Shown one piece after another: positions 32,309 to 45,533 of a stretch of 64,000 nucleotides of DNA. The stretch is from Pedobacter sp. MC2016-14 (GTDB lineage Bacteria > Bacteroidota > Bacteroidia > Sphingobacteriales > Sphingobacteriaceae). Position numbers and translations under genes: made by a program. The stretch lies in contig NZ_JAJMPA010000002.1 of NCBI RefSeq assembly GCF_020991475.1, positions 682,001 to 746,000 on the forward strand, written 5' to 3'. The notes beneath the pieces are model-generated. The model had not been told where the DNA came from. It searched no databases and saw nothing but the letters and a program-made list of their open reading frames with translations. Positions within the stretch are counted from its first letter, which is position 1, and every line of letters starts with the position of its first letter.

Positions 32309-33181
32309 ATGGCCTCAGGTTTTTTTGCAATTTTAGATGATATAGGTGCGTTAATGGATGATGTTTCTGTTGCCGCAAAAGTAGCGACAAAGAAAACCGC
32401 CGGGATTTTAGGGGATGATTTGGCTGTAAATGCTGAAAAAGCCACAGGTTTTTTATCGTCCAGAGAACTACCTGTACTTTGGGCAATTACTAAAGGATCT
32501 CTGGTTAACAAGATTATTATTGTTCCGGTAGCCTTGATTTTAAATGTGTTTTTTCCAATAGCCATTAAATTCATCTTATTACTTGGAGGCGCTTACCTGG
32601 CTTTTGAAGGTGTTGAGAAGATTGTAGAATATTTATTTCATCGTCCAAAAAAAGGTCATGAAGTAGTGGATGAGCGTGAGCAAAATGATACTGATGCTGA
32701 AAAAGCCAAAGTTAAATCTGCAGTACTGACCGATTTTATTTTATCCGTAGAAATTGTAATTATTGCCTTGGGTACCGTTTTGGAAGAGAGTTTATCTATA
32801 CAGATCTTGACTGTATCTGTAGTTGCAATTTTGGCAACTATTGGTGTTTATGGTATAGTTGCATTGATTGTAAGGATGGATGATGCAGGCTACAAATTGA
32901 TTAAAAAGGCCAATGAAAAAGGGTTTCTCGCTGGTTTGGGGCGCTTTCTGGTAAAATCGTTACCAATCATTATTCGTATACTAGCTGTAGTGGGTACGAT
33001 AGCCCTAATTCTGGTGTCGGGAGGTATTTTTGTTCACAACGTGGAATATTTCCACCATTTACTTCCAACTGTACCTGGAGTTGTTAAAGAATTCGGTATT
33101 GGATTAGTTGCCGGACTGCTTGTAGTTGCACTGGTGACAGGCAGCAAAAAGTTAATTGCGGTGTTTAAGAATACAAATTAA
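32309..33181 (+). CDS. DUF808 (YedI-like) inner-membrane protein
   Basis: 290 residues. The N-terminus (FFAILDDIGALMDDVSVAAK) and the motif FEGVEKIVEYLF are characteristic of the DUF808/YedI family, with five to six predicted membrane helices between about 70 and 285. The family has no established biochemical function. It stands alone on the plus strand between the PUL terminator and a minus-strand operon; its last 17 bases overlap the 3' end of the response-regulator gene on the other strand. Confidence 0.88.
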   Translation: MASGFFAILDDIGALMDDVSVAAKVATKKTAGILGDDLAVNAEKATGFLSSRELPVLWAITKGSLVNKIIIVPVALILNVFFPIAIKFILLLGGAYLAFEGVEKIVEYLFHRPKKGHEVVDEREQNDTDAEKAKVKSAVLTDFILSVEIVIIALGTVLEESLSIQILTVSVVAILATIGVYGIVALIVRMDDAGYKLIKKANEKGFLAGLGRFLVKSLPIIIRILAVVGTIALILVSGGIFVHNVEYFHHLLPTVPGVVKEFGIGLVAGLLVVALVTGSKKLIAVFKNTN

Positions 33182-33575
33182 TTAGTTCTCTGAGTTCTTC
33201 TGGATTGAGCGGCTTTTTTAAAAGTTTAACCACATAAGCATTAGCCTCTGCTCTTTTAATATCCCCAAAATCAAGTGTAGAGGAAAGCATGGCAATTGAA
33301 CAGTGATTGGCTAATTCATTAGGAAATCTTTTATAAGCTTCTAAAAATTCAAATCCGTTCATGTCTGGCATTTGTATATCAAGCAGGATGAAATCTGGCA
33401 ACTCTTCTGGTGTGTTTAGGTTTTTTTGAAGATATGATAAGGCCGATTCTGCCGAATTACATTGGATAATTTGATCAAATAATTTGGTAAGGGTAATTAT
33501 TCTGGAGTGGATTTTTAAATCTACTTCATTGTCATCTATAAGCATTACCCTGCTTGTTTTAGTTGGATTGGGCAT
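33165..33575 (-). CDS. single-domain response regulator (CheY-like)
   Basis: 136 residues, a receiver only. Phospho-acceptor D66 in ILLDIQMPDMNG, the acidic pair D14/D15 in MLIDDNEVD, and the conserved Lys in LLKKPLN. No output domain. Its sequence is unlike the three related receivers nearby (33559, 39947, 40453). The start overlaps the end of the hybrid kinase gene by 17 bases, so it is the last gene of the minus-strand operon. Probably a phosphotransfer or protein-interaction output. Confidence 0.9.
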   Translation of the reverse strand: MPNPTKTSRVMLIDDNEVDLKIHSRIITLTKLFDQIIQCNSAESALSYLQKNLNTPEELPDFILLDIQMPDMNGFEFLEAYKRFPNELANHCSIAMLSSTLDFGDIKRAEANAYVVKLLKKPLNPEELRELINLYS

Positions 33576-34644
33576 TTGGTATATTTATTTTAAAAGTAGT
33601 ACCATTAATTTCATCAGAACTCACTGTTATTTTTCCATTGATTTTGTTGAGGGCTTCTTTAACAATAAATAAGCCCAGACCACTGCCACTCAATGTGCTG
33701 CTTTTAAAAAACTGAGTAAATATCCTTTCCAAATGCTCATTTAAAATGCCAATACCATTGTCGTTAATAATAATTTCTGCCTCCAGCTGTGTAACCTGAA
33801 TATCAATGCTTACTTTTTTATGGGTTTCTTCTTCTTTCTGATATTTTATTGCATTAGAAATCAAGTTGCCTAAAATTACCTCTATTCTAAAAGCATCTCC
33901 CGAAAAACGATGCTGCTGATCAATCTTTATTTTAAAAACTGTTTCGCGATCTGCCAGGGAATAAACTTCCAGCAGGTCATACGTTAGGGTATTGAAATCT
34001 ATATCGGTATTTTCAGAAACCGTTTTGTTGTTTTTGTAGTATTGAAGTGTTTTCTGGATGTAGTAATCCAACTTGTTTGAACAGTTTTCTATCATAGACC
34101 AGTACTCACCACTTGAATGGTAAAGATCTTCCATTTTTACGAGGTTCAGGACGCCAATTACTGATACAAGAGGCGCTCTTAATTCATGAGAAATGCTGTA
34201 AATGAATCTGTTGAGTTCGTCGTTGGTTTTTTCTAACTCTGATACCTTATTTCTAAGATCTATCTTTGCTTTGTAAGCATCGTAAGCATTCTTTATAGAA
34301 TTGTGCAACTCAAGGTCATTCCATGGTTTTGTAATGTATCTGTAAATGTCACCATGATTTATAGCATCAGCTAAAGACTCCACATCTGTATAACCAGTTA
34401 ATAAAATACGAATAGGGTCGGGAAAGGTTTCTGTAATGCTTTTAAAAAATTCTACGCCAGTTAATCCAGGCATCTTTTGATCTGCAATAATTACCTGGAT
34501 AGAAACACTTTGAAGTATTTTTAATCCTTCAAAGGCAGAAATTGCTGTATAAATTTCATATTGACGTCTAAAGCTAGCTTTAAATGAGTTTAAATTATTT
34601 TCCTCATCATCAATATATAGAACCCTTACAGTTGGTGCACTCAT
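33559..34644 (-). CDS. REC-first hybrid histidine kinase
   Basis: 361 residues. An N-terminal receiver (D55 in IIADQKMPG; ILLTGY motif; KPWND) is followed by a short coiled coil, HisKA with H153 in ISHELRAPL, and HATPase_c (NLISNAIKYQ, GSGLGLFIVKEA). No membrane segment, so cytoplasmic. Receiver-before-kinase order suggests that phosphorylation of the receiver controls kinase output. The receiver is a close relative of the two single-domain regulators at 39947 and 40453. It starts 11 bases after the 7TMR-DISM kinase gene ends, so the two kinases are probably produced together. Confidence 0.93.
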   Translation of the reverse strand: MSAPTVRVLYIDDEENNLNSFKASFRRQYEIYTAISAFEGLKILQSVSIQVIIADQKMPGLTGVEFFKSITETFPDPIRILLTGYTDVESLADAINHGDIYRYITKPWNDLELHNSIKNAYDAYKAKIDLRNKVSELEKTNDELNRFIYSISHELRAPLVSVIGVLNLVKMEDLYHSSGEYWSMIENCSNKLDYYIQKTLQYYKNNKTVSENTDIDFNTLTYDLLEVYSLADRETVFKIKIDQQHRFSGDAFRIEVILGNLISNAIKYQKEEETHKKVSIDIQVTQLEAEIIINDNGIGILNEHLERIFTQFFKSSTLSGSGLGLFIVKEALNKINGKITVSSDEINGTTFKINIPNAQSN

Positions 34645-34655
34645 AATAAAAGGAG

Positions 34656-36800
34656 TTATCTATTGTTTAAAGGCAAGGTAATAATAAATTCTGTACCTTC
34701 ATTTATTTTTGTTTGCACATCTATATTTCCATGGTGACTTTCAATAATTCTGAAAACGATGGATAAACCCAAACCTGTTCCTTCTCCTACATCTTTCGTA
34801 GTAAAAAATGGTTCAAATATTTTTTGTTTTACTTCGTCTGGCATGCCTGTGCCAGAGTCTTTTATGCTGATTTTAACGTATTGGTCTTCTTTCCAGGTTG
34901 TAATAGTAATAAACTCTTCTGCATTATGCTGAGGCTTTGATTTTATGGCTTGTACAGCATTTGTGATTAAATTCATGAAAACCTGATTGATTTTTCCGGG
35001 CATACATTCTACCTCAGGCAGCTCCTGATAATTTTTAACAACACTAAGGTAGGAAGGGAATGTACTCTTTATTAGTACAAGCGTAGAGTCTAATCCTTCA
35101 TTAAGGTCCACAGGTTTGGTATCGTTTTCGTCCAAACGGCTAAAATTCTTAAGACTTCTTATAATTTCTGCAGTTCGTTTTGCTCCATCTCCAATTCCGG
35201 AAAGCAAGGATTTGATTTCTTCTCTTACATAATGGATGTCAATTTTTCGTTTGAAGGATTCTATACTTGAAATCTGTTTCGCAAGATCTCCGTCGTAGTC
35301 GAGTTTCTCATACATTGAAATTACCTCATTAAGGTCGTTGATGTCCAACTCAAGAGGTTTAATGTTTGAAGTTACGAAGTTGATTGGATTATTAATTTCA
35401 TGTGCTATACCTGCGGTAAGCTGACCAAGCGAAGCCATTTTTTCGGAATCTACCAACTGTGATTGTGCTTCTTTCAGGTTGTATAACGTATCATTTAAAG
35501 TATGATTTGTTTGTTCCAAAGCTTCTGTACGCTCCATAACTTTTTCCTCAAGAATAGCGTTTTGCTCTCTGATAATCCGTTCATTTTCCTGCAGGGCTTT
35601 TAGTGTTTCTTCTTGTGAACGCTCCTTGTCTTTTTTAAAGATGTTAATTTTATCTGCAAGGGCGAAAGACAGTAGCGTAACTTCGGCAGCTGAACCAAAA
35701 AGTATTGCGTAGGCTGTTATGGTATTGTAGGGGATAATACCGTAATCCTTTAAAACATATACAACGATCCCAATCATTAAGGATGTCCAACCAATTAAGT
35801 AGTATTTTGCCTCCGCATAGCCTTTTCTGTATAGATATACTGAGATTCCAAGTATGGCTACGGCTACAATCGATTGCGTGGATAATATTTGTTTAAAGGT
35901 TAAAGAATAAAAACCTAAAAGACTTGTAATGATGAAAATGACATAAATGAGCTGGAATATTTTTAGCAATATGAAAAGCTTTTTGGCTATTTTTTTCATA
36001 TGCATAAATTCTATAAGAAATTGTACGCCAACTATACTAACCAGGCAGGTAAGTAAGAAGACGCTGAAATTGCCAAACCAAGGACTTTCTGACCAAATGT
36101 ATTTATACGTAAAGCCTGTTAAGGAAGCTTGTGTAATACCAATAAAGAGGGTGTGAAGTACGTAGTATAGATAACTTTTATCCCGGATGCTGAAATATAC
36201 AAACAAGTTATATAAAAACATAACCAGTATGATGCCGCAGTAAATTCCGAACCAAAGTGTTTGATCTGAAACTTCTGATGAGAGCGTGTCCGATTTAATG
36301 ATTTTAATTGGCAATAATATCTGTTTGTGTCCTCGTACTTTTAAGTAAAATGTTTTGGTTTCTCCCGGGGCTAAATTAAGCTTAAACAAGAAATTTACGC
36401 TTTGCGTGTAGGTTCTTTGATAGAATGGGAACTTTTCTCCTTGCTTAGTGAGGTGGTATTGCCCGTTTTTAAGTGGCGTATAGAGGTATATTTCTTCTAA
36501 TAAAGGTTGGATAATTTCCAGCAAGTTATCTGTTGATCTGCCGTCATTTTTAACCGTAAATTTAAGCCAAAACGTGGAAGGAGAAACTTGGAAGTTTACA
36601 ATTTCTTTGTCTGCTGTAATAAAATTCTTAGCTTTTAATACCTCGTTAAATGTAAAGGTATTGTCTTTATCCTCTAAATATGAAATATAGGTTCCAATTA
36701 GTTCTGGGCGCTGGTTGTCATTTAAATTTAACACCCTATCAAACGAGTAACTAAAATTACTGATGATACATAAAATAAAGACAAAAGTGAATTTTAGCAT
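34656..36800 (-). CDS. 7TMR-DISM membrane sensor histidine kinase
   Basis: 714 residues: signal peptide (1-19), a periplasmic DISM-type beta domain (about 25-170), seven membrane helices (about 182-385), a coiled coil (390-450), HisKA with H467 in AGIAHEINNPINF, and HATPase_c (NLITNAVQAI, GTGLGLSIVF). The 7TMR-DISM architecture is associated with sensing extracellular ligands such as carbohydrates, but ligands are mostly unknown. Adjacent upstream genes encode possible small-molecule-modifying enzymes, so the ligand may be made by the same operon (inference). Confidence 0.94.
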   Translation of the reverse strand: MLKFTFVFILCIISNFSYSFDRVLNLNDNQRPELIGTYISYLEDKDNTFTFNEVLKAKNFITADKEIVNFQVSPSTFWLKFTVKNDGRSTDNLLEIIQPLLEEIYLYTPLKNGQYHLTKQGEKFPFYQRTYTQSVNFLFKLNLAPGETKTFYLKVRGHKQILLPIKIIKSDTLSSEVSDQTLWFGIYCGIILVMFLYNLFVYFSIRDKSYLYYVLHTLFIGITQASLTGFTYKYIWSESPWFGNFSVFLLTCLVSIVGVQFLIEFMHMKKIAKKLFILLKIFQLIYVIFIITSLLGFYSLTFKQILSTQSIVAVAILGISVYLYRKGYAEAKYYLIGWTSLMIGIVVYVLKDYGIIPYNTITAYAILFGSAAEVTLLSFALADKINIFKKDKERSQEETLKALQENERIIREQNAILEEKVMERTEALEQTNHTLNDTLYNLKEAQSQLVDSEKMASLGQLTAGIAHEINNPINFVTSNIKPLELDINDLNEVISMYEKLDYDGDLAKQISSIESFKRKIDIHYVREEIKSLLSGIGDGAKRTAEIIRSLKNFSRLDENDTKPVDLNEGLDSTLVLIKSTFPSYLSVVKNYQELPEVECMPGKINQVFMNLITNAVQAIKSKPQHNAEEFITITTWKEDQYVKISIKDSGTGMPDEVKQKIFEPFFTTKDVGEGTGLGLSIVFRIIESHHGNIDVQTKINEGTEFIITLPLNNR

Positions 36801-36842: not shown

Positions 36843-37526
36843 TTATTTAAGTAGATGATAACTAATTTCTAACTCTCTTTTTTGACTTGCTTCTATGCGT
36901 GTGATCAATGGGTTTTCTCGCAGATCAAAAATAAGTGTTTTTTCTGAAGGTAGTGCTAATGGCAGCGTGTCGGTATTTTTGATGATGATACTTGTAGCTA
37001 CAAGATCTAATTTTGGGTAAATAAAAGTGCCTTCATTACCTATTGATTTTTCTACTTCAAAACCTTTTTCTACGCTTATGTTGAGCGTATGTGGAGCGCA
37101 TAGTGCAAACAAAGTTGATAAATTTAACTTCGGTATAATGCTGATGCCCGCCCTCATTAATATGTAACTGCCAATACCCCAGCCAGCAGTAGTTTTTGCA
37201 TTCCAAAGGCCACAGAGCTCAGCGGTACCAGCAGCAGTATATTTATCTATCAGGCCGTAAACGCTTTTATCAACCATAGCTACCGCATCTTCCATAGGTA
37301 ATCTGGTGATTCCATCGGCAATATGTATCCTTATTCCACCTACAGTTTCATTGGTGTCGGCCATTTCGGCTACAATGACGTATACTGCAGGATTATAAAA
37401 CCAATCTGTACTTGAGGAAGTAACCTTTGTTACACCATAATCGAGTAATACTTTTGCATGTCCCTGGGCAAATTTAGTGCAGGACGCTAAATCGTCTATG
37501 GCCCTGAACATCCTTACTTTTAGCAT
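36843..37526 (-). CDS. GNAT-like N-acyltransferase (LuxI/FeeM-like layout), tentative
   Basis: 227 residues, no signal peptide. A GNAT-like core is suggested by VGGIRIHIADG (about 62-72), AELCGLWNA (about 102-110), then GWGIGSYILMRAGI (115-128) and FALCAPHTLNISVEKGFEV (140-158). This strand-helix-strand arrangement, with an E-L-x-x-L strand before a G-rich acyl-CoA loop, resembles N-acyl amino acid and acyl-homoserine-lactone synthases. It is not close enough to assign a product. It lies 17 bases after the E1-nitroreductase gene and 42 bases before the sensor kinase, in one operon. Confidence 0.55.
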   Translation of the reverse strand: MLKVRMFRAIDDLASCTKFAQGHAKVLLDYGVTKVTSSSTDWFYNPAVYVIVAEMADTNETVGGIRIHIADGITRLPMEDAVAMVDKSVYGLIDKYTAAGTAELCGLWNAKTTAGWGIGSYILMRAGISIIPKLNLSTLFALCAPHTLNISVEKGFEVEKSIGNEGTFIYPKLDLVATSIIIKNTDTLPLALPSEKTLIFDLRENPLITRIEASQKRELEISYHLLK

Positions 37527-37543: not shown

Positions 37544-39832
37544 TTAGTGTTTGATGAATAATTGTTTTGCCAATGGTCTCCTTAACGATCTGATAGGCTG
37601 TGTGTTTGTTAATGTTAGCCTGAAAACGAATATGGGATACCTGGTGTTTTCAAGAGAAAGTATTTTGTAGAATCTTTCACTAATGTTTTTCATTTCCTTT
37701 TTTTCATATTCATTAAATTCTGACTCATTTGGGCTTAGAAATAACTCATTCATGAAGGTTATTTGCGAAATGGGCTGGAAAGAAATACCGCGGTAATTTG
37801 CTTCAAGCCAGACTTTTTCCAACGCTCTTCCTCCCTTCAGAAAATCGTAGCCCTCGTGTCCGTCCATCGTAATTACGCCAATAGCCGATGCTTTTAAAAT
37901 AGATTCTTTGGATATTTTCTTAAAACCATGTCCCTGCTGTAGTTCATGTAGAAATTCAATTGCTTTGGGATCCTTCGCTATAGTTAAAGCAGCAAGTTCG
38001 CTTTGTTTCATATTTAAGGTAGCTACATCCAATCCATCTGCGGATGTTAGAATTTCTTCTGCTGAAAAACGAAGTTCTTTAACAAAGGTATCGTAATGCC
38101 CGCGGGGATGTAAAAAGCGAAGTCGCTCTGTATTGGTTAAAATTTCAGAGAATTCGATCAGGTCTTCTTCATTTTCAAATATTTTTAATCCGGCACCAGT
38201 AATTTCGCTTGCTGTTTTACTGAGTAGACTCTTGAGATCTTCAGTTAATAAAACTCTTTCAGAAACATCTCTGTTGGTAATTCTGCTGCCAATTATAGGT
38301 GCCAGGTGAAGCAATTCTGCATTGGGCGTAGTCTGCTCAAATGACAATACGGCAATGAGCCGTTGGTCATCACTTAAAGGTAAGATATCTTCATTTGCTT
38401 TAAGGCCAAGTTTGTTGGCTGTAACCTTGATATTTTCTAACATTGCTCCGAAACTAACATAGGAGCCTAAATTATTGTAATCAAGTAAAGAATAGGAGTG
38501 ATGCTGATCATGAAAAATAAAAAGCATGTTTCTATCGAACAAAAATTTCCAGGGCTGTGCATTTCCACCGGATGGTGCGAGCGTAGCGGATTTTACGATA
38601 TCTTCGAGATTGCTGCTATCAATTTTTACAGGAAATACCTCCTTTTTGTATTTTCCTGCGATTTGTTCTAAATCATTAAAAGTTAGCGCCGCAGGACCAT
38701 CGTATTTACTGGTGTCTACAGGGGCTGGTTTTTTATCACCAACAAGTTCGTCAAGATCAATATAGTATCTGCCTGATTCGTGATATTGATCAAGAAGAAT
38801 TCTGCGTGAGACATCAGTGGTTAATGCACCTCCTAACACTACAGAAGAGGCCAGCTGCGGCCAGGTGTTGATGGATTGTTCTACTTCGAGCATAGAGGCT
38901 TTTAAGCGGGTAGAAATACTTTCTGCTCCGATCATCTTAAGCACAAAAGGTATTTTTTCTTCATTTGTTAAGCCCTTTATGTTTTCTGGATCTAAGCCGT
39001 CTGCCAATCCATGAAGTATAGGACGGGAAGGTTCAAGGTCAAAACGCTCCACGTCAAGCATACCCCGGTCATTGGTGTCCATTACCACAGGTATATTTAA
39101 TTCTCTGGCTTTAAATCGACTTTCAATTTTGATGTCAAGACCATCGCAGACTTCTACAAACAAATCAAGCTTTCCTCCGCCGGTAAAAAACTCGTTTATA
39201 TTACCTTGATGAAGACCGTCGTTAAAGATTCGAACTTTAATAAATGGATCAATTTCCGCAATCTCTCTGGCTGCAATAACAGTTTTTTGCAATCCTAAAT
39301 TTTGGATGCCCGTACGAAGCCGGTTTAAATTACTTAATTCGGCGGTGTCAAAATCTGCCAGTCTTAACTCACCGCATGTACGCTCCATGGCTAATGTAAG
39401 CGCTATAGATTGGCCAACAGAAAGTCCAACAACGCCTATTTTTTTACTTTGGAGTAAAGCCTGTTCTTCTCTTGTTATTTTGTATCGGTTTCGATTTGTT
39501 CTAACCTCAATAAATTCTTCAGCATCGAGTGCATGAATTAATTTGTTGCTCCAGGGGTAATATATCCAAACACCATATTTAGATAAATCCTGGCCAGCTA
39601 AATGTTTATCCTTGAGCTCATCTATCTGTTTACGTGATGGCTTCTTGAGCTCCGGATTTTTAGATTTTAACAGATCATCAAGCTGTGTGCTGATTTGATC
39701 GTGTATTTGTATCGTCGGATTTTGCGCTAATAAATTTTCTAGTGCGGTTTCTTGATCCTGATTTTGGATTCTATAAAATAATGGCTCATAACAAAGTTGA
39801 GACTCTATTGATTGGTTTTCAGATAATAGCAT
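37544..39832 (-). CDS. E1/ThiF-like adenylation domain fused to nitroreductase (Rv1355c family)
   Basis: 762 residues, cytoplasmic. Residues 1-125 are family-specific. Residues 130-350 are E1/ThiF-like: glycine loop GVVGLSVGQS (134-142), ADFDTAELSNLNR (159-171) matching the D-x-D...N-x-N-R ATP-binding block, and C229 in EVCDGLDIK as a possible active-site cysteine. Residues 405-750 are a nitroreductase-fold flavoprotein with the FMN-binding APSGGNAQPW (419-428). Proteins of this layout are filed as Rv1355c family, with no known reaction. Similar partners (E1-like enzyme plus FMN oxidase) make azole rings in thiazole/oxazole peptides, which suggests adenylation then oxidation; this is inference. 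First gene of the operon. Confidence 0.85.
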   Translation of the reverse strand: MLLSENQSIESQLCYEPLFYRIQNQDQETALENLLAQNPTIQIHDQISTQLDDLLKSKNPELKKPSRKQIDELKDKHLAGQDLSKYGVWIYYPWSNKLIHALDAEEFIEVRTNRNRYKITREEQALLQSKKIGVVGLSVGQSIALTLAMERTCGELRLADFDTAELSNLNRLRTGIQNLGLQKTVIAAREIAEIDPFIKVRIFNDGLHQGNINEFFTGGGKLDLFVEVCDGLDIKIESRFKARELNIPVVMDTNDRGMLDVERFDLEPSRPILHGLADGLDPENIKGLTNEEKIPFVLKMIGAESISTRLKASMLEVEQSINTWPQLASSVVLGGALTTDVSRRILLDQYHESGRYYIDLDELVGDKKPAPVDTSKYDGPAALTFNDLEQIAGKYKKEVFPVKIDSSNLEDIVKSATLAPSGGNAQPWKFLFDRNMLFIFHDQHHSYSLLDYNNLGSYVSFGAMLENIKVTANKLGLKANEDILPLSDDQRLIAVLSFEQTTPNAELLHLAPIIGSRITNRDVSERVLLTEDLKSLLSKTASEITGAGLKIFENEEDLIEFSEILTNTERLRFLHPRGHYDTFVKELRFSAEEILTSADGLDVATLNMKQSELAALTIAKDPKAIEFLHELQQGHGFKKISKESILKASAIGVITMDGHEGYDFLKGGRALEKVWLEANYRGISFQPISQITFMNELFLSPNESEFNEYEKKEMKNISERFYKILSLENTRYPIFVFRLTLTNTQPIRSLRRPLAKQLFIKH

Positions 39833-39874
39833 GGAAAATTTATTGTAAACCCCTGATAAATTAATTCAATAGAG

Positions 39875-39882
39875 CAAAAATA
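39875..39882 (-). promoter_or_regulatory. possible -7 box for the E1-nitroreductase operon
   Basis: TATTTTTG on the minus strand (complement of 39875-39882), 43 bases before the ATG at 39832. It fits TAnnTTTG, but I see no well-spaced -33 element. Confidence 0.4.
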
Positions 39883-39946
39883 GCTATATTTAGCATATTA
39901 ATGCGTCTTTGAGGTGCTTAATTCAAAAATTGCGTAATTTTGATTT

Positions 39947-40414
39947 ATGATGGACAAACAGGATATAAATATACTATACGTAGATGATGAAGTTCATAAT
40001 TTGAATGCCTTTAAAGCCTCATTTAGAAGGTGTTTTAATGTTTTTACGGCTGACTCCGCAGCAGATGCATTAGCGGTGTTAAAAGAAGAAAGTATCCATG
40101 TAATTGTTACAGACCAGCGCATGCCTGTGATGACCGGAATTGAATTTTTGGAATCCATTATTGAGAAATATCCTGATCCGATAAGGATTTTACTAACTGG
40201 TTATTCTGATATTAATGCAGTTATTGATGCAATTAATAAAGGTCAAGTCTATTTATACATCACCAAACCATGGCAAGACGATGAATTGAGGCTTAATCTC
40301 GAAAGAGCTTATGAAGTGTTTTCTCTAAGAAAGCAAAATAAGGAACTAAACGAGAAACTTACCGTCGTTAATCAACAACTTGAATTTATGCTTCGCCAAA
40401 AATTGCTTTCGTAA
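39947..40414 (+). CDS. single-domain response regulator, copy 1 of tandem pair
   Basis: 155 residues: a receiver with D56 in VTDQRMPVMTG, the RpfG-type ILLTGYSD motif and KPWQDDE, then a C-terminal coiled coil (about 125-155, KQNKELNEKLTVVNQQLEF). No DNA-binding or enzymatic output, so it probably acts by protein contact or phosphotransfer. It is divergent from the minus-strand operon with 114 bases between. MM at the start leaves two possible ATGs (39947, 39950). Confidence 0.92.
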   Translation: MMDKQDINILYVDDEVHNLNAFKASFRRCFNVFTADSAADALAVLKEESIHVIVTDQRMPVMTGIEFLESIIEKYPDPIRILLTGYSDINAVIDAINKGQVYLYITKPWQDDELRLNLERAYEVFSLRKQNKELNEKLTVVNQQLEFMLRQKLLS

Positions 40415-40452
40415 AAAAAAGTCTGTTATATTTAGCATCTAATGTTTTTTAT

Positions 40453-40917
40453 ATGAATAATCAGTCAATCAACGTTCTTTATGTAGATGATGAAATTCAT
40501 AATCTAAACTCCTTTAAAGCGGGATTTAGGAGAGTGTTTAATGTATTTACTGCGGAATCTGCTGTTGAGGGGAGAAAAATTCTGGATACTGAAGAGATCA
40601 ATATTGTGATCACAGATCAAAGAATGCCCATAACCACGGGAATCGAATTTTTGGAATCTATTATTCCTGATTATCCGGACCCCATTCGGATATTGTTGAC
40701 TGGGTATGCGGATATTACTGCCGTAATTGATGCTATTAACAGGGGAAAGGTATATCGGTATCTTCAAAAGCCCTGGATGGAGGAGGAATTGAAGATTAGT
40801 ATTGAAAAAGCTTTTGAAGTTTACATACTTCGAAAGGAGAATAAGGAGCTAACTGCTAAACTGATTGAGGCTAACGAACAGCTTGAAAGCCTTCTGAAAC
40901 AAAATCTACTGCCTTAA
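40453..40917 (+). CDS. single-domain response regulator, copy 2 of tandem pair
   Basis: 154 residues, closely similar to the preceding gene over its full length: D55 in ITDQRMPITTG, ILLTGYADI, KPWMEEE, and a C-terminal coiled coil (ENKELTAKLIEANEQLESL). The 12-base TATATTTAGCAT occurs before both copies (39885-39896 and 40427-40438), so the duplication included upstream DNA. The closest third relative is the receiver of the hybrid kinase at 33559-34644. Probably takes phosphate from one of the two kinases. Confidence 0.92.
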   Translation: MNNQSINVLYVDDEIHNLNSFKAGFRRVFNVFTAESAVEGRKILDTEEINIVITDQRMPITTGIEFLESIIPDYPDPIRILLTGYADITAVIDAINRGKVYRYLQKPWMEEELKISIEKAFEVYILRKENKELTAKLIEANEQLESLLKQNLLP

Positions 40918-40942: not shown

Positions 40943-43900
40943 ATGAGTAAATCGGTTTACCTGCTGATTTTTATCCTTATACTTTTGTGTTTTCAGAAAG
41001 TAAATGGCCAAAATATATCTAATGAGGGCACTGAGTTTTGGGCTGTTTTTCCAACTCATAATCCTGCCGGTGCTAACAATTTGGCTAATATTACTATATA
41101 TGTGACTTCTAAAGAGAATTCTGAAGTAACAGTTAGTTGTGGTACTTATACATCAGGGTCAAAAGCAATACCTGCCAATACCAGTGTGCCATTTGATGTG
41201 CCTAGAAGCCAGGCGTACATTGATGAAACTGAATCTTATCCTACAAGAACTATTATTTCAGAAAGTGTACTCTCAAGAGGGATTCATGTTAAAGTTACAG
41301 ATGGTCAACCTAAAGTTGCAGCTTATGCCCATATTTATGCAGGCAGGCGATCGGCAGCATCATTGCTATTACCAGTAGAAGCTGCTGGACAGAAGTATTA
41401 TTCTATGAATTTTACACAGAGTCCTAATGAAGGCAATAACTTTATTGTCATTGTTGCTGCGGAAGACGATACAGATGTAAGAATTCATAATGGTAATACA
41501 ATAATTCCTATACATTTGAACCTTAAAGGGGATGTTTTTGAATATCGCTCTGTAGATGCCACTGATTTAACTGGGACCTTTATAGATGTAGATCCAATTA
41601 GTTCTGGATGCAAGAAATTTGTAGCATTTTCAGGAAGTTCAGCTGATAATATTGGTGATTGCGTGTTGGCTCCAAATGTTACTGTGTCAAGAGATCCACT
41701 TTTTCAGCAGCTTTATCCTGTGAATAGTTGGGGTAAAAATTACGGCATAGTGCCATTTATCGATAGACGGCATATTGTAAGGGTACTTGCACAAGAAGAC
41801 AATACTACTGTAAAAGCAGATGGAGTTTTAGTTGCCACTTTAAATGCTGGTATGTATTACACTTCGCCAATATCAAGTGTCTCTTCATTAGTAACTGCAG
41901 ATAAAAACATTAGTGTAGCGCAGTATTCTTTAAGCCAGGCATGTTCCGGGGTTAATGGAGGAGCTAAAACAGGTGATCCCGAAATGATCCTGCTAAATCC
42001 TGTAGAATTCAACATCAAGAAAATTACGTTGTTCTCTTCCAAAGACGAAGCGATTTCGGAGAAATATATCAATATATATATGAAAACCTCAGGCACATCA
42101 ACCTTTAAGATTGATGGAGCAGCCCCCATCAAATCATGGGTGCCAGTTCCATCTAACCCAGAGTTTTCTTATATTCAAATTGGATTGGATATTGAGTTGA
42201 CAAGTGTAACCTTAATGGCTGATGTTGGTTTTAATGCGGTTGCGTATGGTTTTGGAAATGTTGAGTCTTATGGATACTCTGCAGGGACTAATCTGGCAAG
42301 CAATAATTATTTATTGGTAACGAATGAAAGTAAAACGCTTGAAAGTCCTGATGCATGCGTGGATGAACCTGCTAGTTTTAAAGTGGTTCTTCCATATGAG
42401 GTTAGCAAAATTACCTGGTCGCTAAATGAGGGCATACCTTATGTAGATGCTGCGCCTGTTGCAACGCCGATTACAGTGAATGGAGAAGTCTATTACTCTT
42501 ATTTTTATTTAGCAAATAAAGAATTCGAGTTGGCTGATCTGGGTGAGAATGAGATGAAAGTGAACATAAATTTGGCTGCCACCATGGCTGGGTGCCCGGG
42601 AGCACCGCTTGAGTTGACTTTTAAGTTTAATGTGGATGCTTTGCCAGATCCCGATTTTGATTTTGCACCTGGAACAAACATTTGTCCCGATGTACCTGTC
42701 CAGTTTTTTGACAGAAGCAACTCAAATACTGTTGGTAAGAAAATTGCCCGATGGACCTGGACGTTTGATGATGGTAAGATAGAAACAACTCAAAATCCCT
42801 TTCATACTTTTACCTCAGGCGGGGAACATAGCGTAAAGCTATCAGTTGCTACAGAAACAGGATGTATGTCTGATGTGAAAGATATTCCAGTGAATGTACG
42901 GCCAAAGATGACTGCTAAATTCAGTGCCCCTTCTGTTGTATGTCCGTCTGTTGAGTTCTCTATAACTGATCAGTCTAGCATAGAAACACCGGGTAAAATT
43001 GTAAAATGGCTTTGGAATTTTGGAGATGGAAAGCCAACGATTAATAAGTTTGACGCCTTACCTTTTACATATTCTTATAGTGAAGCAGGAAGTTATACCA
43101 TTACTCTGGTTACCGAATCGGAATCTGATGGATGTCAAAGTTTTCCTGAACCTAAGGTGGTAACTGTAGCTTCATTACCTAATGTGAACTTTGAAATACC
43201 AACTGTGTGTCAGGCTGAAGTTGCTGTTTTTAAAAATACATCAACAAATGAACTAGGAACGGAAACAGGTTTGCAGTATTTCTGGGACTTTGGCGATGCT
43301 TCAAATCCCGCTATGAATACCTCACAACTCAAAGTTGGTGCACATTTATATCCTGGGCCTACAGATTATGATGTGACCTTAACTGTAATCAATGCCTCGG
43401 GTTGTAAGAATTCAAAGACTCAAAGAATTTCTGTTAACGGTGCAACTCCTGTCCCTATATTTAGTGTAGCGAATATGGATAAGTTATGTAGCAATAAGGA
43501 AGTTTTGGTGACCAGCACTTCTTATGTTTTACAAGGTGGTAATTTGACAAAACTTGAATGGCAGCCTGATTTTGTAAATCATCCGGAATGGGTAGTTACT
43601 GACGATAGTCCAACTTCTGGTGAGTCCTATTCTTTTGACTATAAAGCTTTCAATACGCCTGAAGCGAAAACTTATAAAATACGCCTAGTTGCTTATTCTG
43701 GGGGTACTGCGCTTAGCTGTCATGAGGATAAGACTCAAGATATTACTGTTTTAGCGGCTCCAATCTTAAAATTTGATGATATTGATCCAATTTGTGTTAA
43801 TGCAGAATCCATACCTTTAACTCAAGCCGCAGAAACCGCTAATCTGCCAGGAACTGGCGTCTATTCCGGACCAGGCGTTGTTCAGGTTGGTGCTAACGCT

Positions 43901-44518
43901 TTTAAGTTTAATCCTGCAGTGGCAGGTGTAAATGAAAGTGGCCATACCATAACTTATACTTTCACCGCTAACAATGGCTGCCCTGAAACAATAGTTAACA
44001 AGATAAAGGTAATGCCAAAACCTTCTCTTTTTGTGGATCGTGATGTATATGTTTTAGCTGGAGGACAAAAGATGATTTTATCAGAAGCTACTGGCTTTAA
44101 AATATCTTATCAATGGAGTCCTGTAACTGGATTGAGTAGTAGTACAATTTCTAATCCTATAGTTACTCCTGAAAAAGACACAGAATATACGGTGACTGTA
44201 ACTTCTGGTAGTAATTGCATTGTTTACCAAACGGTTTCTGTGCATGTTTTGAATTCGGTTAATGCTCCAAATACTTTCTCTCCAAATGGAGACGGTGTAA
44301 ACGATACATGGAATATTGCCCATTTGGACAGCTATCCGAACGTAACCGTCGATATTTTTGACCGTTACGGCGCAAAAGTGTTTTTTAGTAAAGGATATTC
44401 CGTACCTTTTGACGGGAATTTTAAAAATGAAGCTTTGCCTGTAGGAACCTATTACTACATTATAGATCCAAAAAATGGCAGGAGTAGAGTAACGGGCTCA
44501 TTAACCTTAATTAGATAA
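40943..44518 (+). CDS. large secreted PKD-domain protein with type B T9SS sorting domain
   Basis: 1191 residues. Signal peptide to about VNGQ; an N-terminal IgGFc-binding-like region (EFWAVFPTHNPA onward, about 25-460); several PKD-type Ig domains marked by WTFDDG, WNFGDG and WDFGDA; and a C-terminal gliding-motility-type domain (NTFSPNGDGVNDTW, DRYGAKVF, LPVGTYYYII), the type B sorting signal of the type IX secretion system. Expected to be exported to the surface and to work as an adhesin or motility-associated protein. The PorP/SprF-like partner starts one base after its stop, which is the usual arrangement for type B cargo. Ligand unknown. Confidence 0.92.
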   Translation: MSKSVYLLIFILILLCFQKVNGQNISNEGTEFWAVFPTHNPAGANNLANITIYVTSKENSEVTVSCGTYTSGSKAIPANTSVPFDVPRSQAYIDETESYPTRTIISESVLSRGIHVKVTDGQPKVAAYAHIYAGRRSAASLLLPVEAAGQKYYSMNFTQSPNEGNNFIVIVAAEDDTDVRIHNGNTIIPIHLNLKGDVFEYRSVDATDLTGTFIDVDPISSGCKKFVAFSGSSADNIGDCVLAPNVTVSRDPLFQQLYPVNSWGKNYGIVPFIDRRHIVRVLAQEDNTTVKADGVLVATLNAGMYYTSPISSVSSLVTADKNISVAQYSLSQACSGVNGGAKTGDPEMILLNPVEFNIKKITLFSSKDEAISEKYINIYMKTSGTSTFKIDGAAPIKSWVPVPSNPEFSYIQIGLDIELTSVTLMADVGFNAVAYGFGNVESYGYSAGTNLASNNYLLVTNESKTLESPDACVDEPASFKVVLPYEVSKITWSLNEGIPYVDAAPVATPITVNGEVYYSYFYLANKEFELADLGENEMKVNINLAATMAGCPGAPLELTFKFNVDALPDPDFDFAPGTNICPDVPVQFFDRSNSNTVGKKIARWTWTFDDGKIETTQNPFHTFTSGGEHSVKLSVATETGCMSDVKDIPVNVRPKMTAKFSAPSVVCPSVEFSITDQSSIETPGKIVKWLWNFGDGKPTINKFDALPFTYSYSEAGSYTITLVTESESDGCQSFPEPKVVTVASLPNVNFEIPTVCQAEVAVFKNTSTNELGTETGLQYFWDFGDASNPAMNTSQLKVGAHLYPGPTDYDVTLTVINASGCKNSKTQRISVNGATPVPIFSVANMDKLCSNKEVLVTSTSYVLQGGNLTKLEWQPDFVNHPEWVVTDDSPTSGESYSFDYKAFNTPEAKTYKIRLVAYSGGTALSCHEDKTQDITVLAAPILKFDDIDPICVNAESIPLTQAAETANLPGTGVYSGPGVVQVGANAFKFNPAVAGVNESGHTITYTFTANNGCPETIVNKIKVMPKPSLFVDRDVYVLAGGQKMILSEATGFKISYQWSPVTGLSSSTISNPIVTPEKDTEYTVTVTSGSNCIVYQTVSVHVLNSVNAPNTFSPNGDGVNDTWNIAHLDSYPNVTVDIFDRYGAKVFFSKGYSVPFDGNFKNEALPVGTYYYIIDPKNGRSRVTGSLTLIR

Positions 44519-44519
44519 T

Positions 44520-45533
44520 TTGAAACCTTACCATTTTATATTGGTTACATTTATGCTACTGGCATCAATAGCTACGGCCCAACAGCGGCCGCAGTATACC
44601 CAGTATGTGTTCAATAACTATCTTCTAAATCCTGCATTAAGCGGTATAGAAAATTATGCTGATGTGAAAATGGGCTACCGTAAACAATGGGCAGGTATCA
44701 CTAATGCGCCAAAAACATCCTTTATTACTGCAAATTGGAACCTTGGAAGCGACTACTTATGGAGAAATGCATTGTCTTTACCTGAAAAAGGGGACGACCC
44801 GATGAGTAAAAATTACATGCAGAATTATACTGCTTCGCCTGCGCACCATGGCATGGGAGTGACCGCTGTTTTGGATAAGACCGGTCCAATTTCAAGACTC
44901 GATGCCAATGTTACTTATGCGTACCACTTACAGTTAGCTAATACATTAAATTTATCTGTTGGTGCTGCAGTGGGGTTAACTAATATAGCACTGGATGTGA
45001 ATGCACTCTTATTGGAAAATGCCAGCGATCCCGCGCTTTCTAATACGATTGTAAACCAGGTGAAGCCTGATTTGGGCCTGGGGCTATGGTTATATGGCGC
45101 AAGGTTTTTTGCCGGAGTTGCCGCTCAGCAGATTATTCCGCAAAAGTTATCCTTTACAAATGATCCAAGTTATAATTCTGGGAAAGAGGTTGCTCATTAT
45201 TTTATAACTGCTGGGTATAAACTTTTTATTGACGATGAGATAGCCGCTATTCCGTCGGTTATGGTTAAAAGTGTGCGTCCAACTCCGGTTTCTGTAGATA
45301 TGAACTTGAAGGTGTCTTTTAGGGACAGGTTATGGGTTGGTGGAAGTTATCGTCGTAATGATTCTTATTCCGCACTTGTGGGATTTAATATGAGTAAGTT
45401 GATTAACTTAACTTACTCATATGATTTTACTACTTCGGATTTAAATAAGGTTAGCAACGGTACACATGAAATTGTACTTGGATTGCAGCTGAACAATATT
45501 TATGAAGTGCTTAGCACAACACGCATGTGGTAA
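44520..45533 (+). CDS. PorP/SprF family outer-membrane protein
   Basis: 337 residues from a TTG start at 44520: this start gives a full signal peptide (KPYHFILVTFMLLASIATAQ), whereas the next ATG (44553) would cut it short. QYTQYVFNNYLLNPALSG is the family hallmark of PorP/SprF proteins, followed by a barrel (MGYRKQWAGI, VSFRDRLWVGGSYRRND). Proteins of this family are paired with type B C-terminal-domain cargo and help anchor or export it; the cargo gene is directly upstream. The stop is 2 bases from the convergent rpoN stop. Confidence 0.93.
   Translation: MKPYHFILVTFMLLASIATAQQRPQYTQYVFNNYLLNPALSGIENYADVKMGYRKQWAGITNAPKTSFITANWNLGSDYLWRNALSLPEKGDDPMSKNYMQNYTASPAHHGMGVTAVLDKTGPISRLDANVTYAYHLQLANTLNLSVGAAVGLTNIALDVNALLLENASDPALSNTIVNQVKPDLGLGLWLYGARFFAGVAAQQIIPQKLSFTNDPSYNSGKEVAHYFITAGYKLFIDDEIAAIPSVMVKSVRPTPVSVDMNLKVSFRDRLWVGGSYRRNDSYSALVGFNMSKLINLTYSYDFTTSDLNKVSNGTHEIVLGLQLNNIYEVLSTTRMW

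Follow-up and report, generated by a model that had tools for sequence, protein, structure and literature searches.

The window analysed here comprises 64,000 nt of the Pedobacter sp. MC2016-14 genome (assembly GCF_020991475.1, contig NZ_JAJMPA010000002.1, positions 682,001-746,000 of the forward strand) and carries a minus-strand operon in which the genes of a predicted TrzA/TrzS-type acyl-oxazolone synthase are followed by that of a 7TMR-DISM sensor histidine kinase. To judge from its enzymes, the operon's product is very probably a small ring compound built from a fatty-acyl amino acid. We lean towards the reading that this product is an N-acyl amino-acid-derived signal sensed by the operon's own adjacent kinase, to which the conserved linkage, the co-variation, and the layout of the genes point.

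The operon comprises five closely spaced genes (gaps of 17, 42, and 11 bases, then a 17-base overlap). These encode, in order, a TrzS-like fusion of a ThiF domain with a flavin mononucleotide (FMN)-dependent oxidase (FDO), a TrzA-like N-acyl amino acid synthase, the sensor kinase, a protein with receiver (REC), HisKA, and HATPase domains (hereafter the REC-kinase), and a single receiver, with two further receivers on the opposite strand. The initial annotation had described these operon genes and divergent receivers; all are open reading frames at the coordinates given below, and the domains of all but the TrzA-like protein were confirmed by Pfam.

Biosynthetic enzymes

The first gene of the operon (37544-39832, minus strand) encodes a 762-aa protein in which Pfam recognizes a ThiF domain (residues ~1-370) and a nitroreductase domain, the latter corresponding to the FDO (residues ~396-762). 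The protein scores 781 bits against the NCBIfam model NF005901 for the Rv1355c family (cut-off 476) and is 31-34% identical, over the aligned length, to five actinobacterial TrzS proteins, while the nearest solved FDO structure is that of Acg (2ymv, E = 6.1e-8). The initial annotation held that no reaction is known for the Rv1355c family; this no longer applies, as TrzS chemistry has been published. In the account given by Kleetz and colleagues (PMC12856293), TrzA (Rv1356c) acylates tryptophan, and TrzS, of the Rv1355c family, uses ATP to cyclise what TrzA has made and O2 for the desaturation, which gives an N-acyl tryptazolone, an oxazolone. The same account names Asp217 and Arg540 of the M. 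smegmatis TrzS as residues that matter.

Residue conservation was counted in 78 distinct fused proteins (50 from Bacteroidota, 21 from Actinobacteria, and 7 others), obtained from 80 aligned rows after removal of one duplicate locus and the fragment L106, and in 29 ThiF-only proteins of at least 380 bits (loci L129 onward). D230, which was matched to M. smegmatis D217 through related mycobacterial proteins, is invariant in all 78 fused proteins together with R171, K183, and N170, and the four residues are also kept in 29/29 of the ThiF-only proteins. In the FDO, R572 is present in the window protein and kept in 73 of the 78, and from its spacing would be the equivalent of M. smegmatis R540. 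The Q651 position is a glutamine in the window protein; of the 50 distinct Bacteroidota proteins, 27 have Q there and 23 have H. C229, a residue singled out earlier, is cysteine in 45 and serine in 5 of these 50, and therefore is no universal catalytic cysteine, whereas the adjoining D230 is invariant. On the strength of its curated family score and its conserved catalytic residues, the window protein is assigned here as a TrzS.

The second gene (36843-37526, minus strand) encodes the 227-aa TrzA-like protein, which neither Pfam nor NCBIfam recognized at E <= 0.01. Its AlphaFold2 model, built from a 48-row alignment with a predicted local distance difference test score (pLDDT) of 94 and a predicted template modelling score of 0.91, shows a GNAT-type fold. 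FeeM (2g0b) ranked first in Foldseek (E = 5.2e-8), and VIA-align superposed the two with a Z of 18.1 and a root-mean-square deviation of 2.3 Å over 170 residues. The LuxI/FeeM-like layout that had been proposed for this GNAT-like protein is thus reproduced by the predicted structure, which has a fold of the FeeM/LuxI type and not an unrelated one. The next VIA-align matches were a P. aeruginosa acyltransferase (Z 17.0), ElaA (16.6), and LasI (16.3), and since FeeM stands ahead of ordinary acyltransferases by just ~1 Z, the fold alone leaves the substrate unsettled. Among 46 TrzA homologues, nine gave weak Acetyltransf_1 matches in Pfam (best E 0.0026), and none matched the autoinducer-synthase models at E <= 0.1. 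The window protein shares just 12-17% identity with four actinobacterial TrzA proteins, and therefore tryptophan is not to be assumed as its substrate.

The two proteins together present the features of acyl-oxazolone synthases, namely the ThiF aspartate and adenylation motif, an Acg-type FDO with its arginine, and an adjacent acyltransferase of FeeM/LuxI fold. TrzA/TrzS-type synthesis is well supported because of this homology (family score, catalytic residues, FeeM fold, and published reactions). The window pair would very likely carry out N-acylation followed by ring closure with desaturation.

Conservation and boundary of the module

The gene order was sought in other Bacteroidota and is conserved, the E1-nitroreductase gene not being consistently far from the kinase and acyltransferase genes. 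In a class sample of 295 genomes (ThiF/TrzS threshold E <= 1e-60, surroundings fetched for all carriers), 52 encoded a ThiF/TrzS protein. All 52 were placed, of which three were cut by a contig end and thus not evaluable, and TrzA and a 7TMR-DISM kinase adjoined ThiF/TrzS in 45 of the 52 (own genome included). A phylum sample of 296 genomes contained 12 with TrzA, and the kinase adjoined it in 12/12. In a set of 80 named loci from GTDB genomes, the kinase was present, among the matches listed, at 36 of the 37 Bacteroidota loci, with the remaining one (L041) ending at a contig end, and at 0/43 loci from other phyla, three of these being shorter than 9 kb.

To find the boundary of the module, 25 Bacteroidota loci were picked for the length of their flanks (24 of the 37 named loci plus the window). 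For each of genes -1 to +3, the median number of the 24 other loci with a homologue lay between 14 and 24; it was 5 for gene +4 and 0-1 for genes beyond -1/+4, except at the last position, +10 (4, from five loci only). As the core is kept while the flanks decay, we are dealing with a module and not with a conserved region of the chromosome. The Bacteroidota core proteins are ~25-51% identical to those of the window. Because few 7TMR-DISM proteins occur per genome (6 in the 5.0-Mb genome of the window and 1-4 in twelve other genomes), the probability of such a neighbourhood arising by chance is low, of the order of one per cent by our own estimate. The earlier idea that the operon produces a small molecule and belongs to a fixed set with a sensor kinase is supported, and both conditions named as refuting it turned out the other way (the conserved gene order and the FeeM/LuxI-type fold).

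Several loci depart from the usual arrangement. L161 and L165 encode complete ThiF-FDO proteins with no acyltransferase or kinase within the 8-9 kb around them, and L176 (8452-9561) shows a weak ThiF match (189 bits), no acyltransferase or kinase, and a cassette-type receiver that is still divergent, perhaps a remnant of the module. At eight loci from Acidimicrobia/actinomycete metagenome-assembled genomes (MAGs; L056, L058, L059, L070, L075, L080, L082, and L090), ThiF shares its frame with a weak match to the acyltransferase (49-65 bits) and, except in the split L090, with the FDO. These frames of 950-1024 aa possibly encode all-in-one oxazolone synthases. At the Myxococcota locus L091 (3-4111), the gene directly after that of ThiF encodes 900 aa that include a receiver domain, and here the cyclase may have been joined to signalling independently.

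Exchange of the modifying enzyme

The ThiF protein lacks the oxidase in 16 of the 44 other class-sample cassettes, and one genome has no ThiF and carries an ICMT carboxyl methyltransferase (PF04140, E 1.5e-19) between TrzA and the kinase. No oxidase of the FDO type was detected genome-wide at E <= 1e-5 in 18 genomes with an oxidase-less cassette (17 ThiF-only and the one with ICMT); 4/4 fused controls gave a match. A survey of 195 genomes of the ICMT-bearing genome's family, with all TrzA neighbourhoods fetched, found TrzA in 60 and the kinase adjoining it in 59, the sixtieth contig ending two bases past TrzA. The enzyme beside TrzA in these 60 cassettes was ThiF-FDO in 25, ThiF in 11, ICMT in 7, a class-I methyltransferase in 3, an FAD-linked oxidase (FAD_binding_4) in 2, and a cut FDO in 1, with none seen in the other 11 (three of them contig-cut). 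Pfam was run on the three class-I methyltransferases, both FAD oxidases, and two of the ICMTs, the other five being assigned by profile only. A tblastn search for ICMT remnants gave no match at E <= 0.01 in the eight uncut family cassettes without a visible modifying enzyme.

On quick trees of 53 of the 60 family loci (six contig-cut loci and G035 were left out), the enzyme type must change 14 times on the best tree for TrzA and 12 times on that for the kinase, with losses counted as changes; the well-supported branches alone force fewer changes for some enzyme types. Shuffled type labels need ~27 changes, and so the enzyme types are also clustered by descent.

A fixed synthase and receptor with changing decoration looks like what is seen in signal families, and exchange of the modifying enzyme around a kept acyltransferase-kinase pair would give Bacteroidota lineages different signal molecules. 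We infer that ICMT and the ThiF cyclase are alike in that both would cap the carboxylate. With some hesitation, we suggest that the cassettes may represent a widespread Bacteroidota signalling family, in which the acyltransferase-receptor pair is kept, the finishing chemistry is exchanged, and the lineages have different signals and co-evolving receptors. The same tentative suggestion extends to its products, which might be a desaturated oxazolone, an oxazolone, a methyl ester (through ICMT or another methyltransferase), an FAD-oxidised product, and a bare N-acyl amino acid.

Among the variants, three class-I methyltransferase cassettes (L246, L252, and L266) have a same-strand receiver after the kinase and neither a REC-kinase nor a divergent receiver. 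At L262, L257, and L175, the FDO scores are 34, 167, and 169 bits, compared with mostly 320-410 elsewhere, as if the oxidase had been lost stepwise.

Sensor kinase and receivers

The third gene of the operon (34656-36800, minus strand) encodes the candidate receptor, a 714-aa protein with Pfam matches to 7TMR-DISMED2, 7TMR-DISM_7TM, and HATPase, and a HisKA match under the Pfam cut-off. It is built from a periplasmic jelly roll, seven helices, HisKA, and HATPase, as is a 7TMR-DISM histidine kinase, and its phospho-acceptor H467 is present in 97/97 cassette kinases. In the model of the sensor half (pLDDT 91), the ectodomain matches RetS (3jyb, E = 7e-7). Jelly-roll ectodomains of this RetS-like type are often linked to sugars. 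The next matches were to Wntless (E ~2e-3, low TM score), which we take to be a seven-helix carrier of an acylated protein, and are to be read as a hint only.

The REC-kinase (361 aa; 33559-34644, minus strand) has the layout of PhcR, with Pfam matches to REC, HisKA, and HATPase, and is present in 40/44 class cassettes; among its homologues, the phospho-residues Asp55 and His153 are kept in 91/91 and 87/91, respectively. The last gene (33165-33575, minus strand) encodes the 136-aa single receiver, with the layout of PhcQ (Response_reg, E = 7.8e-15), in which the aspartate lies within an LDIQMP motif starting at residue 65.

On the plus strand, the two divergent receivers (both Response_reg) comprise copy a, which has a C-terminal tail (39947-40414), and copy b of the same profile family (40453-40917), probably a tandem duplicate. 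A divergent receiver on the opposite strand occurs in 38/44 class cassettes and 47/58 family cassettes and is, given the former count, a usual part of the module, with its phospho-aspartate intact in 86/86. It is typically present as a single copy at the named loci, and the two copies found in tandem here seem to reflect a duplication. Four loci from Flavobacteriales/Bacteroidetes MAGs (L092, L096, L098, and L099) combine ThiF-only, TrzA, and the kinase with a 178-182-aa receiver that takes the position of the REC-kinase; a divergent receiver was not seen at these cassettes.

Co-variation of synthase and sensor

Pairwise distances were compared in three sets of loci (40, 53, and 28) in which all needed genes were whole. 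With the kinase half and the REC-kinase controlled for, TrzA correlated with the sensor half at a partial r of 0.21, 0.35, and 0.29, values reached by 10, 0, and 2 of 1000 permutations, respectively. The REC-kinase did not track the sensor half (413, 1000, and 632 of 1000 permutations as high) and did track the kinase half (0, 0, and 6 of 1000). This is the pattern to expect of a sensor that responds to what TrzA makes and of a kinase half that signals to the REC-kinase, and we regard it as supporting, not deciding.

Proposed pathway and alternative readings

The pathway that we propose would start with the TrzA-like enzyme, which, from its fold and homology, would move an acyl group from acyl-CoA or acyl-acyl carrier protein onto the amino group of an amino acid, probably an aromatic one. 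By homology to the enzymes proven in Mycobacterium and Rhodococcus, the ThiF domain of the TrzS-like protein would then adenylate the carboxylate with ATP and close a five-membered oxazolone ring, which the FMN oxidase domain would desaturate with O2 to give an N-acyl oxazolone. The conserved linkage, co-variation, and layout suggest that this acyl product would reach the membrane or periplasm and be read there by the jelly-roll/seven-helix sensor of the 7TMR-DISM kinase, from which phosphate would pass on to the REC-kinase's receiver and to the single-receiver proteins. As none of these shows a DNA-binding domain, they should act on other proteins, as has been proposed for PhcR and PhcQ of Ralstonia.

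Several observations weigh against a sensed product. Taken by itself, linkage is just as compatible with a kinase that responds to another stimulus and regulates formation of the product, and the actinobacterial tryptazolones are reported to be more abundant in cells, with a function that is not known (PMC12856293). The module is patchy (the 52 of 295 class genomes given above), the ThiF/TrzS protein is absent from the two other sampled genomes of the window's genus, and in 4 of the 49 class genomes that could be evaluated, the kinase is missing beside ThiF/TrzS (L161, L162, L165, and L176). Pfam found no DNA-binding domain in the module members of the window, which leaves the module without a DNA-binding output; no exporter was noticed in the module, and the amino acid and acyl chain used by the window pair are not readable from sequence. 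On a tree of 42 of the 136 cassette kinases, picked for spread, and 11 of the 16 others (five aligned poorly to the profile or were short), the cassette kinases were not shown as one clade and implied 4 changes; one clade was not rejected (p-AU 0.471). The co-variation has its own caveats. The raw correlation of TrzA over 88 pooled loci is 0.55 with the REC-kinase, 0.49 with the kinase half, and 0.31 with the sensor half, the link to the sensor half emerging only as a partial correlation, and TrzA also follows the kinase half in two of the three sets (0.26 and 0.36; 0/1000 each). The REC-kinase/sensor value is negative in the family set (-0.14), hence a hint of collinearity. The Mantel permutations ignore shared ancestry, and the locus sets share 1, 2, and 2 identical kinases.

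The main rival reading, less likely in our judgement, is that a cue from the envelope or the environment acts on the kinase, which then turns production of an acyl-oxazolone on or off. The compound would serve as an antimicrobial, a surfactant, or a lipid of the membrane and would be the kinase's output, not its input. Linkage is symmetric between this and the sensing of the product, and the RetS-like ectodomain, with its sugar-linked fold type, would suit a cue of this kind. An antimicrobial action has been ascribed to the N-acyl tyrosine derivatives of Stieleria (discussion of PMC12856293), which are also reported to alter marine biofilm communities (PMC7293339), and N-acyl alanine methyl esters of Roseovarius reportedly play no part in acyl-homoserine lactone signalling (PMC11580390). 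Taken alone, however, a cue-sensing kinase leaves unexplained that the sensor half tracks TrzA while the REC-kinase does not track the sensor (subject to the caveats above), as well as the fixed pairing of kinase and acyltransferase amid exchanged modifying chemistry.

That same constancy of the acyltransferase-kinase pair, around which enzyme order and content vary, makes it improbable that the operon simply adds another branch to oxazolone lipid biosynthesis and has its two-component neighbours only through inherited synteny. The biosynthetic homology on which such a branch would draw is firm, but the flanks fall away while the core stays, and the core proteins have diverged as far as stated above; synteny by descent as a full explanation was rejected, the boundary test having largely refuted it. 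We give hardly any credence to the analogy with modified peptides drawn in the initial annotation, in which the E1-oxidase would make azole or azoline rings. Pairs of an E1-like protein and a flavin oxidase do so in known peptides, but the analogy is not supported, because those enzymes of the family that have been tested take a free N-acyl amino acid as substrate. The constant partner, moreover, is an acyltransferase of FeeM fold. With the family chemistry known, this reading was rejected.

Neighbouring genes

Upstream in window coordinates, 7829-29099 is a polysaccharide-use region unrelated to the operon, encoding GH97, GH2, GH3, and SusD proteins, a hybrid two-component system regulator, and a CarboxypepD_reg/Plug outer-membrane protein. 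On the other side, 40943-45533 encodes a large PKD/IgGFc-binding protein with a type B sorting domain of the type IX secretion system, then a PorP/SprF protein. A scan of the window for sigma-70-type promoters gave 28 matches against 29 expected, and the Bacteroidetes-type pattern gave 10 against 5.4, one of them at 39908-39942; none of this was used as evidence.

Comparison with known systems

The TrzAS system of Mycobacterium and Rhodococcus (PMC12856293) resembles that of the window in its ThiF-FDO fusion beside an N-acyltransferase, with the ATP-site aspartate kept and the FDO arginine present in most. It differs in its surroundings, as c-di-GMP genes are reported to adjoin trzAS (PMC12856293) and 28/28 actinobacterial loci fetched had no 7TMR-DISM kinase. 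The gene order also differs, trzS preceding trzA in the window and following it in most actinobacterial loci with a TrzA match. OxzAB of Pseudoalteromonas, which serves tyrazolone synthesis, reportedly combines the same three activities. These are likewise found in TyzACB of Mycobacterium, which makes tyrazolones (PMC10404671), and by its authors' DALI search TyzA also has the fold of FeeM and acyl-homoserine lactone synthases; in TyzACB, however, ThiF and FDO are separate genes, and no linked kinase is mentioned in the text consulted.

The signalling half has its closest likeness in phcBSRQ of Ralstonia, described in PMC8578825 as a synthase, sensor kinase, REC-kinase, and single receiver in the same order as in the window, with PhcR and PhcQ free of DNA-binding domains, as are their window counterparts. 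There, the synthase PhcB is a methyltransferase making a hydroxy-fatty-acid methyl ester (PMC8578825), whereas the window has ThiF-FDO, and the window's sensor differs in being a 7TMR-DISM protein. Some cassettes carry a methyltransferase, which PhcB is too (10 of the 60 cassettes in the one other family surveyed). A search of plasmid records for kin of PhcR gave matches of which the 25 listed, out of 451, bear generic kinase or response-regulator names, none being labelled PhcR. The window kinase itself is like the RetS/LadS-type 7TMR-DISM kinases in combining a DISMED2 jelly roll, the 7TM region, and a kinase.

We found no 7TMR-DISM kinase fixed beside an acyl-signal synthase in the literature searched, nor any link of oxazolone or FeeM-type synthases with Bacteroidota 7TMR-DISM kinases, a search that left subscription papers mostly uncovered, so that an earlier description is possible. 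The discoverers of the tryptazolones call the physiological role of oxazolones a major unresolved question (PMC12856293), and the conserved receptor-type kinase beside the synthase makes that role directly testable, by asking whether the product switches the kinase. If it does, Bacteroidota would own a dedicated acyl-signal family with a seven-helix receptor, in which gene content would predict the chemical dialect, and a lipid-like class of ligand would be added for 7TMR-DISM kinases. The variants that lack the FDO and those with a methyltransferase also suggest natural products that the literature searched does not describe. What looks new is the attached sensory module, which has the look of an undescribed chemical communication system in many Bacteroidota; synthesis and circuit each have a precedent, and it is their union, with exchangeable chemistry, that looks new.

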